A stretch of 45,814 bases of DNA from Oscillochloris sp. ZM17-4 (lineage in GTDB: Bacteria > Chloroflexota > Chloroflexia > Chloroflexales > Chloroflexaceae). Shown here piece after piece: positions 41,214 to 43,793 of the stretch. Where the stretch lies: NCBI RefSeq assembly GCF_019599295.1, contig NZ_JAIEWN010000020.1, positions 24,853 through 70,666 of the forward strand, given 5' to 3'. Every line of letters starts with the position of its first letter. Positions within the stretch are counted from its first letter, which is position 1. The notes under the pieces are model-generated. The model was not told the DNA's origin and ran no database searches. It saw only the letters and a list, made by a program, of their open reading frames with translations. Made by a program: the position numbers and the translations under genes.

Positions 41214-41277
41214 GGGGACAGGGGACAGGGGACAGATGCTCTCTGTCCCCTGTCCCCTGTCCCCTGTGCCCTGTCCC
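41214..41277. repeat. Inverted heptamer arrays (GGGGACA)3 / (CTGTCCC)5
   Basis: Three GGGGACA units (41214-41234) face five CTGTCCC units (41243-41277; one is CTGTGCC) across an 8-bp loop, 8 bp downstream of the aroF stop. It can serve as the aroF terminator hairpin. Confidence 0.85.
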
Positions 41278-41284
41278 CCGATAG

Positions 41285-42301
41285 CTAGCGACCCCGCCCG
41301 ATAGCGCCGGCCACGGCGGCGATCTTCGGCATCAGGGCGGCGAAGTTCTCGGGGTTGAGCGACTGGCCGCCGTCAGACTTGGCGCGGTCGGGGTCGGGGT
41401 GTACCTCCAGGATGACCCCGTCGGCGCCGGCGGCGATGCTGGCCAGGGCCAGGGGCTCCACCAGGTACCACTTGCCGGTGCCGTGGCTGGGGTCGGCGAT
41501 CACCGGGAGGTGGGTGCGCCGCTTGGCCACCGCCACCGCGTTCAGGTCCATCGTGTTGCGGGTGGCCGTCTCGAAGGTGCGGATGCCGCGCTCGCAGAGG
41601 ATGACGTTCGGGTTGCCCTGGGCGATCACATACTCGGCGCTGAGCAGCCACTCCTCGATGGTGGCCGAGAGGCCGCGCTTGAGCAGGACGGGCATGCCGG
41701 TGCGGCCGACCTCCTCCAGGAGCTGGTAGTTCTGCATATTGCGCGCGCCGATCTGGAGCATGTCGGCGTAGCGCGCCACCAGATCCACATCGCCGGGGGT
41801 CATCACCTCGGTGACGATCGGCAGCCCGGTCTCCTCGCGGGCCTGGGCCAGCAGCTTGAGGCCCAGCTCGCCGAGGCCGCGGAAGGTGTAGGGCGAGGAG
41901 CGGGGCTTGAAGGCGCCGCCGCGCAGCATGGTGGCGCCGGCCTCGCGCACGACCCGCGCCGTCTCGATGATCTGCTCCTCGCTCTCGACGGAGCAGGGGC
42001 CGGCGATCACCGCCACGCTGCCGCCGCCCACCTTCACCCCGCGCACGTCGACGATCGTGTCCTCGGGGCGCACCTCGCGGGAGACGAGCTTGTAGGGCTG
42101 GGTGATCCGCACCGTCCCCTTCACCCCGCGAAAGTGCTCCATCTCCTCGCGCAGGGTGGGCGGGATCGTGGCGCCGACCACGGCCACCACTGTGCGCTCC
42201 GCGCCGACGGTCAGGTGCCCCTGCAGGTCGTACTCTTTAAGCCGCTCAAGCACGGCGTCGATATCGGCCCTGGTCGATCCGGTCTGCATGATAACGATCA
42301 T
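41285..42301 (-). CDS. aroF: 3-deoxy-7-phosphoheptulonate synthase (DAHP synthase)
   Basis: A 338-residue enzyme that condenses phosphoenolpyruvate with erythrose 4-phosphate, the first step of aromatic amino-acid synthesis. It has the N-terminal ferredoxin-like regulatory domain of the Bacillus/Thermotoga-type synthase (residues 1-70, [21 protein letters not shown]) and the TIM barrel with [53 protein letters not shown] and DPSHGTGK. The ATG at 42301 has a strong ribosome site (GAAGGAGGAGGACC). In-frame ATG 42445 upstream could add 48 residues read through a repeat array. It follows aroH and is probably co-transcribed under the leader-peptide control region. Confidence 0.95.
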
Positions 42302-42341
42302 AGCGCGGTCCTCCTCCTTCATAGGCGTATCACAGGCGATA

Positions 42342-42376
42342 GAACAGGGAACAGGGGACAGGGAACAGGGGACAGG
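42342..42376. repeat. Heptamer array (GRACAGG)5
   Basis: Five units alternating GAACAGG and GGACAGG between aroF and aroH. Same unit family as the arrays at 29453 and 41214; no facing inverted copy. Confidence 0.8.
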
Positions 42377-42471: not shown

Positions 42472-42885
42472 CTACGCGCCGCCGGCGGGGTCGGGCGACG
42501 TGCGGAGGGCCGCCATCCTGGCGGCGTGCTCGGGGCGCAGGTTGCTCGCGCCACGCAGGTAGACGTGGATGACCTCGCTGGCCTGGCGCTCGGTGTTCCA
42601 GTGGACGAGCACGCGGACGCAGCGCGGCAGGCTGCCGGGCACGGTCATCTCGTGGCCACACATCAGGGCGGTGTCGACCCAGCCCAGCTCGCGGGCGGCG
42701 ACGGCGGGGAACTCGGCGTTCAGGTCGGGCGTGGTGGTGAAGATCGCGCTGGCGATATCCTCGGGCCGCAGGCCGTTGGCCGCGATCATGGTCTGGAGCA
42801 TCTCGCGGGTGGCGGTGAGGATGGCCTCACGGCTGTTCTCGTCGCAGGTGATCGCCCCGCGGACGCCTCGGCACCAGATAGTCAT
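42472..42885 (-). CDS. aroH: Monofunctional chorismate mutase, AroH class
   Basis: A 137-residue enzyme converting chorismate to prephenate, the branch point to Phe and Tyr. AroH-class landmarks: [15 protein letters not shown] at the N-terminus, [40 protein letters not shown] (active-site Glu and Arg), the [13 protein letters not shown] end with Tyr. The C-terminal tail after LRPEH is ordinary for the family. ATG 42885 has the ribosome site GATGAGGGGAC. It is the first structural gene after an aromatic-rich leader peptide and hairpin, and precedes aroF. Confidence 0.95.
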
Positions 42886-42925
42886 AGTCCCCTCATCTCT
42901 AGTCTGCGTGTGGCCGGGAACACAG

Positions 42926-42959
42926 AGAGGGCGTGAGGCTCGGTTGCCTCACGCCCTCT
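42926..42959 (-). terminator. Attenuator-type hairpin before aroH
   Basis: Perfect 14-bp stem (AGAGGGCGTGAGGC with its complement) and six-base loop, 28 bp after the leader-peptide stop and 41 bp before aroH. The RNA downstream (CUGUGUUCC) is only moderately U-rich. I could not work out an antiterminator by eye. Confidence 0.55.
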
Positions 42960-42986
42960 GAACGAGTTGTCTGTTGACAGAAGTTT

Positions 42987-43064
42987 CTAGACAGTGCGAA
43001 GCGACCGGGCCATATGTGGGCCGGTAAAGTAATAGCCGTAGAAGCTGTTGGCCAGAGCTGGCAT
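42987..43064 (-). CDS. Aromatic-rich leader peptide of the aroH-aroF operon
   Basis: A 25-codon frame, ATG 43064 to TAG 42987, whose residues 7-13 are SFYGYYF: two Phe and three Tyr codons in six consecutive codons, followed by TGPHMARSLRTV. It lies between a strong promoter (43105-43133) and a hairpin (42926-42959) upstream of chorismate mutase and DAHP synthase, enzymes of Phe/Tyr synthesis. By the known logic of pheA/trp leaders, ribosome stalling at Phe/Tyr codons would decide whether the hairpin forms. The ribosome site (AAAGTGAG) is weak. The peptide is too short for family assignment; codon content and position are the evidence. Confidence 0.7.
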   Translation of the reverse strand: MPALANSFYGYYFTGPHMARSLRTV

Positions 43065-43104
43065 TGGCTCACTTTACTTCATTGCTGCGCATCGCTACGG
43101 GCTG

Positions 43105-43133
43105 ACTATAGCATAGGGGGCGCGGGGCGTCAA
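43105..43133 (-). promoter_or_regulatory. Promoter of the aro leader operon
   Basis: On the minus strand: TTGACG (43128-43133), 17-bp spacer, TGC, TATAGT (43105-43110). This is the only promoter in the window with both a good -35 and an extended -10. It predicts a start near 43098, about 34 nt before the leader-peptide ATG. Confidence 0.7.
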
Positions 43134-43137
43134 GGGG

Positions 43138-43200
43138 ATTGCAGATTGTAGATTGCAGATTGCAGATTGGCCCAATCTGCAATCTACAATCTACAATCTG
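43138..43200. repeat. Inverted heptamer arrays (ATTGCAG)4 / (CAATCTG)4
   Basis: Four units on each side (43138-43165 and 43173-43200) with a 7-bp loop, the cleanest paired array in the window. It lies between the ANTAR regulator stop and the aro promoter, only 4 bp from its -35 box. Confidence 0.9.
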
Positions 43201-43208
43201 CAATCACG

Positions 43209-43793
43209 CTAGGAGCCGAGCAGCTCCTCGGCCTCGATGATCGCCTGGGCGATATCCTTCATCTTGGCGCGCTTGTCGCGGGCGCGCTGGCGCAGGCGCT
43301 CGTAGGCGTCGCGCTCATTGAGGCCGAGGCGCTGCATGAGGATGCCCTTGGCGCGCTCGATCAGCTTGCGTGCCTCCAGCGAGTCCTCAAGCTCGTCGAC
43401 GTGGGAGCGCAGGCCCTGGATCTCTCTGAAGCGGGCCAGGGCGATGTTGATCGCGGGGGGCAGCTCGTTCTCGTTCACCGGCTTGACGAGGTAGGCCAGG
43501 GCGCCGGCCGCCTCGGCCTTGCGCACCGTCTCCTTGTCCGCGTAGGCCGTCAGCATAATGATCGGCACGGGCATCTGGTCGCGGATGCGGGCGGCCGCCT
43601 CGGTGCCCTCCATCTCGGGCATGCGGATGTCCATCATGATCAGGTCCGGCTTCAGGCGGTTGGCCAGCGTGATCGCCTCGGCGCCGTTGCGCGCGATCCC
43701 GATCACATCGTAGCCGAGGCCCTTCAGCTGCTCCTCAAGGGTGAGCGAGACAAGGTCGTTGTCCTCGACGATCAGGATCCTGGTTACAGCCAC
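43209..43793 (-). CDS. Response regulator with ANTAR RNA-binding domain
   Basis: A 194-residue protein. Residues 1-120 form a receiver domain with the acidic pair Glu10-Asp11, phosphoacceptor Asp55 (LIMMDIRMPEM), Thr82 and Lys104. A coiled linker (about 122-140) leads to an ANTAR domain (about 141-192, RKLIERAKGILMQRLGLNERDAYERLRQRAR). ANTAR proteins of the AmiR/NasT/EutV class bind paired hairpins in RNA and prevent termination when phosphorylated. No histidine kinase is adjacent, although a GAF sensor is encoded about 1 kb away. GTG 43793 has a GAGG ribosome site. Target RNAs are unknown. Confidence 0.93.
   Translation of the reverse strand: MAVTRILIVEDNDLVSLTLEEQLKGLGYDVIGIARNGAEAITLANRLKPDLIMMDIRMPEMEGTEAAARIRDQMPVPIIMLTAYADKETVRKAEAAGALAYLVKPVNENELPPAINIALARFREIQGLRSHVDELEDSLEARKLIERAKGILMQRLGLNERDAYERLRQRARDKRAKMKDIAQAIIEAEELLGS

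Follow-up and report, generated by a model that had tools for sequence, protein, structure and literature searches.

A classical ribosome-mediated transcription attenuator very probably controls the aroH-aroF genes of Oscillochloris sp. ZM17-4 through the supply of charged Phe and Tyr tRNA. By every feature that can be tested in sequence, the 1:2 helix excepted, the locus is such an attenuator, and because the leader and its two competing hairpins are conserved in every relative that could be checked, a shortage of charged Phe/Tyr tRNA most likely switches the genes on. The source genome is a 6.69-Mb draft from the order Chloroflexales, and the window (the whole stretch of 45,814 nucleotides that was analysed) has a GC content of 69%. 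A sequence-only reading had described, on the minus strand, a promoter, a 25-codon frame containing Phe-Tyr-Gly-Tyr-Tyr-Phe, a 14-bp hairpin, and then genes for chorismate mutase and DAHP synthase; each element lies where it had been placed, and profile matches bear out both enzymes (Table 1). The range given for the observation, 42472-43133, takes in aroH along with the switch, which by itself spans approximately 43133-42919 on the minus strand.

Table 1. Features of the aroH-aroF leader region and its neighbours, in minus-strand order, with the basis for each.
Feature	Position	Strand	Basis
Receiver-ANTAR response regulator gene (RNA-binding antiterminator type)	43209-43793	-	PF03861
Sigma-70-type promoter TTGACG-N17-TATAGT (putative)	43105..43133	-	10/12 consensus matches, extended TG
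Leader ORF, 25 codons MPALANSFYGYYFTGPHMARSLRTV, stop TAG	42987..43064	-	ORF translation; aromatic run conserved
Putative sensor codons F-Y-G-Y-Y-F	43026..43043	-	translation; run conserved across order
Region 1, pre-emptor arm ACCGGCC, immediately 3' of last Phe codon	43019..43025	-	complementary to region 2 CCGGT
Region 2, antiterminator 5' strand CCGGTCGCTTCGC, within leader frame	42996..43008	-	duplex, covariation, folding
Region 3, terminator 5' arm and loop GAGGGCGTGAGGCAACCG	42941..42958	-	complementary to region 2 or region 4
Terminator hairpin 3:4, 14 bp, GC-rich, loop AACCGA	42926..42959	-	folding and covariation
Weak U-tract CTGTGTTCC 3' of terminator	42917..42925	-	sequence; many relatives have better U-tracts
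aroH, monofunctional chorismate mutase	42472..42885	-	TIGR01796 132.8 bits (cut-off 82), PF07736 158.7 bits
aroF, DAHP synthase, ferredoxin-like N-terminal domain type	41285..42301	-	NF006421 496.5 bits, TIGR01361, PF00793/PF18152

Conservation of the Phe/Tyr-rich frame had been set beforehand as a test, and the aromatic run proved to be kept across the order. The aroH gene was found in 59 of 61 Chloroflexales genomes, from which 60 aroH loci were fetched; at all 60, aroH is preceded by a short frame of 22-32 codons in which aromatic codons form a dense run. When a leader is defined as a frame of 20-33 amino acids with at least five aromatics within eight codons, one is present at 54/54 non-redundant loci, as against 0.4% of these upstream regions after dinucleotide shuffling. 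The run varies by synonymous and F/Y/W exchanges, and Phe and Tyr are each encoded by both of their codons. Variants include NSFSFYYF in Oscillochloris, FYTYFFYF in Chloroflexus-type genomes, YFFWFWYF in Roseiflexus, and FFSSYFYYF in family f3, which is probably Herpetosiphon-like. The Shine-Dalgarno sequence of the Oscillochloris leader is weak (3/6).

Of the 324 codons that make up the last six positions of the run at these 54 loci, 277 (85%) encode F, Y, or W (141 F, 118 Y, and 18 W). The enrichment for Phe plus Tyr had been read as matching the pathway branch, and chorismate mutase and DAHP synthase as targets do fit these sensed amino acids. Roseiflexus-type leaders (L017, L018, L020, L021, L029, and L038) additionally carry Trp codons within the run (FWFWYF), which suggests that sensing may extend to all three aromatic amino acids in these leaders. 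We put at about even the chance that the leader is a joint sensor of Phe and Tyr (and, in some genera, of Trp) that would respond when either amino acid runs short, and not to Phe alone; on this reading it would be an ancestral point of control over the aromatic branch in several Chloroflexota classes. A sub-case of the attenuator, and compatible with it, is that the switch in practice senses only Phe and tolerates the Tyr codons as neighbours; we regard this as possible but rather unlikely. The final codon of the run is Phe in 48/54 loci, each time TTT (48/48), and in Corynebacterium glutamicum the leader AroR, with its Phe-Tyr-Phe, reportedly reacts when Phe, but not when Tyr, is limiting (Neshat et al. 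2014, as summarized in PMC11802643). However, a Phe-only sensor would have no need of the 118 Tyr codons, nor of Tyr at position -1, where it stands in 47/54 loci. The fixed TTT (43026-43028 here) contrasts with the equal use of TTT and TTC in aroH of the same genomes (55 to 55).

The minus strand reads, in order, ANTAR response regulator gene, palindromic repeat, promoter, leader frame, hairpin, aroH, and aroF. By consensus scan, shuffles contain a mean of 0.1 promoter sites of equal quality, and a promoter-like pair (at least 9/12 matches, 17-18 nt spacing), judged on sequence consensus only, lies 5' of the leader in 56/56 loci. With its end at 43209, the ANTAR-domain regulator gene lies some 76 bases 5' of the promoter, and the RNA could in principle be the target of this regulator, with the ORF incidental. 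We consider that very improbable: the gene adjoins the aroH leader in only 29/59 assessable loci of the order, whereas the leader is present in all of them and so persists without an adjacent ANTAR gene, and an RNA-protein target would not preserve aromatic codons through synonymous changes. The near-perfect palindromic repeat immediately 5' of the promoter (GATTGCAGATTG...CAATCTGCAATC, 43137-43205) has dozens of dispersed copies in the genome (94 matches, both strands counted), with relatives just upstream of pheA and of a second DAHP synthase gene. Short repeats of the CCCTGTTCCCTGTCCC type are found both in the aroH-aroF gap, at 42339-42373, and after aroF, at 41220-41284.

The putative terminator, helix 3:4, is both very stable and supported by covariation. 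Folded alone, the hairpin reaches -32.4 kcal/mol (z -5.89), and 0/200 shuffles do as well. Across 54 sequences, 8 of its 14 pairs show changes on both sides; 92.5% of cells are paired, compared with 31-65% in slid alignments, and cells with both-side changes number 97 versus 27 in shuffles. A consensus terminator scan of the Oscillochloris sequence did not call the hairpin; its U-tract is poor. At one locus upstream of aroH (L034), the leader is present and the 5' arm of the terminator is missing, through either a deletion or an assembly collapse of the hairpin.

Pairing that would exclude this hairpin, the other half of the proposed switch, is present in the Oscillochloris sequence itself and in its relatives, as seen in duplex energies, covariation, and folds. 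Near the end of the leader frame, CCGGUcGCUUCGC is complementary to the 5' arm and loop of the terminator, with a duplex energy of -24.4 kcal/mol that is reached by 1/200 shuffles. Folding of the segment that spans region 2 through the hairpin loop yields the exact 2:3 helix (-29.4 kcal/mol, z -2.94, 69% ensemble frequency), and 83.1% of 2:3 cells are paired among the 54 sequences, versus 27-50% when alignments are slid. Covariation of 2:3 is modest, with 13 both-side cells versus 7 in shuffles and 4/500 shuffles scoring as high. When region 2 and the terminator are swapped across families, the cognate 2:3 helix is clearly better in f1 and f2, slightly better in f3, and no better in f4. Three leaders (L042, L043, and L050) provide a natural control: the C-terminal part of the peptide is in another frame (TGCFPLHT and SGCFALYQ versus WLLRVG), yet the region 2 RNA is retained as GGTTGCTTCSCGTTG (GGTTGCTTC(G/C)CGTTG), which supports a role for region 2 as RNA.

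The 1:2 helix is the exception among the features of the attenuator. Region 1 (ACCGG or ACCAG) pairs with region 2 (CCGGU or CUGGU) across the leaders, and 77.6% of 1:2 cells are paired versus 10-51% in slid alignments, but 55/500 shuffles reach its covariation score. Read by eye, columns 42 (region 1), 58 (region 2), and 133 (terminator loop) tend to co-vary, with G-C-G in L009 and L027 and A-U-A in L028, L030, and L037; such co-change is what a strand with two alternative pairing partners should show.

The conserved frame and the competing antiterminator argue for the classical attenuator layout that had been proposed. They also bear on a rival account, in which the hairpin is a constitutive terminator of an upstream transcript or an ordinary 5' UTR hairpin and the ORF is fortuitous. 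The hairpin lies 40 nt before aroH, and genomes as rich in GC as this one are rich in ORFs and hairpins; against this stand the rarity of such leaders in shuffled regions, the promoter-like pair 5' of the leader at every locus scored, and the conservation of the antiterminator. We judge this rival account to be highly unlikely.

The geometry of the attenuator was modelled by thermodynamic folding with a masked ribosome, in which a footprint was assumed and the RNA beyond it was folded. With the ribosome masked at the last aromatic codon, the antiterminator 2:3 forms in 55/55 leaders; with the ribosome masked at the stop codon, region 2 is covered and the terminator 3:4 forms in 55/55 leaders. 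The median distance from the last aromatic codon to the start of the antiterminator strand is 16 nt, and the median distance from the 3' end of this strand to the end of the stop codon is 3 nt; in the same geometry, the spacing of 1:2 fits a region 1 that lies beneath the stalled ribosome.

From the sequence, its conservation, and these competing helices, we infer a transcription start, translation of the leader, termination, and a response to Phe/Tyr that would proceed as follows. Transcription would begin just 5' of the 25-codon leader. When charging of Phe- or Tyr-tRNA is low, the ribosome would stall on F-Y-G-Y-Y-F and cover region 1 (ACCGG...), leaving region 2 (CCGGUcGCUUCGC) free to pair with the nascent 5' arm and loop of the hairpin; once this 2:3 antiterminator has formed, the polymerase would continue into aroH-aroF. 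When the amino acids are ample, the ribosome would reach the stop codon just 3' of region 2 and cover that region, the 14-bp terminator 3:4 would form, and transcription would stop before aroH. Without a stalled ribosome, region 1 could also lock region 2 in the 1:2 helix.

Extremely improbable, finally, is a T-box, riboswitch, or other leader that binds tRNA or a metabolite. Both T-boxes and riboswitches are known in Chloroflexi (PMC3766115), and both readings were rejected because no relevant Rfam family appeared for the region at the gathering threshold or at an E-value of 10; matches below threshold comprised only miRNA/snoRNA-type noise. Neither the window nor the related loci gave a gathering-score match to the amino acid leader families of Rfam (Trp, His, Leu, Thr, and others), and the T-box model had no match in the sequences searched. 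The strongest of the weak matches, to miRNA models, correspond to the upstream palindromic repeat.

A covariance model of the region (R1) identified one strong site in the Oscillochloris genome (E 6.8e-24). Weaker matches in the same genome are terminators of other genes or lie on the reverse strand, and do not represent further copies; likewise, no such leader was found upstream of this genome's pheA, trpE, tyrA, or second DAHP synthase gene. Across the phylum, the model matches 35/251 genomes, although a few of the weakest matches are terminators of other genes. Elsewhere in Chloroflexota, similar leaders can stand 5' of aroH; Anaerolineae-type genomes carry aromatic leaders followed by terminators in the upstream regions read, for example MLKSARWFAYFYFYGFRNSVAVGGA. 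Outside the order, aromatic leaders also lie 5' of an aroH-prephenate dehydratase operon (L134), of aroF (L136), and of another DAHP synthase type (L137). Among these leaders from outside the order, the antiterminator is convincing only in some; the duplexes of the Anaerolineae-type leaders are mostly no better than shuffles, so alternative pairing in them is at most putative. No leader was seen where aroH directly follows a trpA-type gene (trpA being read from flanking sequence), nor at the examined aroH loci of Planctomycetota, Desulfobacterota, and Acidobacteriota, with the exception of one MAG contig labelled Singulisphaera (Planctomycetota). This contig (L178) bears a Roseiflexaceae-type aroH leader and is probably misbinned Roseiflexaceae.

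The closest known systems are aroR-aroF of C. glutamicum, the nearest described case, and pheL-pheA of Escherichia coli. The enterobacterial trpL-trpE attenuator follows a four-region logic (1:2, 2:3, and 3:4). The Chloroflexales leader would have that logic in common with it, the 1:2 helix being a putative element, and differs in the amino acid sensed and in having regions 1 and 2 inside the leader frame, with the stop codon directly after region 2. In E. coli, Phe is the sole amino acid that pheL senses, and the PheA enzyme unites chorismate mutase and prephenate dehydratase in one fused protein. Similar features of pheL-pheA are a Phe-rich leader, competing antiterminator and terminator hairpins, and a first gene with chorismate mutase activity, whereas the locus described here has a Phe/Tyr run in front of genes for a monofunctional chorismate mutase and a DAHP synthase. 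As described in PMC11802643, which also names the pheL-pheA attenuator, aroR-aroF likewise places an aromatic leader peptide 5' of the DAHP synthase gene aroF, and ribosome stalling raises transcription of the operon. The C. glutamicum system comes from another phylum, and chorismate mutase takes the place of the first gene in the Oscillochloris locus; set against the Phe-Tyr-Phe given in that description, the Chloroflexales run is richer in aromatic codons, which include Tyr and, in some genera, Trp. Similarly, the uORFC-13-1 motif 5' of Acholeplasma aroF is a proposed Phe-sensing uORF with a terminator upstream of a DAHP synthase gene; its uORF is U-rich with at least one Phe, it is found in Acholeplasma and environmental sequences, and no mixed Phe/Tyr run is reported for it (PMC8632094).

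The kind of mechanism is already textbook attenuation; what is new is its clade-wide occurrence in Chloroflexales. According to a 2010 survey, which itself added a case in Firmicutes, leader peptide systems had until then been demonstrated in no phyla other than Proteobacteria and Actinobacteria (PMC2965389). A 2013 survey, restricted to the four leaders of this kind that Rfam contained at the time, suggested that gamma-proteobacteria may be where leader-peptide attenuation arose and that its horizontal transfer has been very rare (PMC3766115). The sequence-only reading knew of no described example in this lineage; consistent with this, we found no description of leader-peptide attenuation in Chloroflexota in the literature searched, mostly outside subscription journals, and Rfam annotates nothing at these loci. 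The leaders reported here would thus extend the known range of leader-peptide attenuation to a deep-branching phylum, Chloroflexota. Approximately 60 aligned leaders with two competing helices and a covariance model are now defined, and this family yields a prediction, Phe versus Tyr sensing, that may be tested in cultured Chloroflexus or Roseiflexus.
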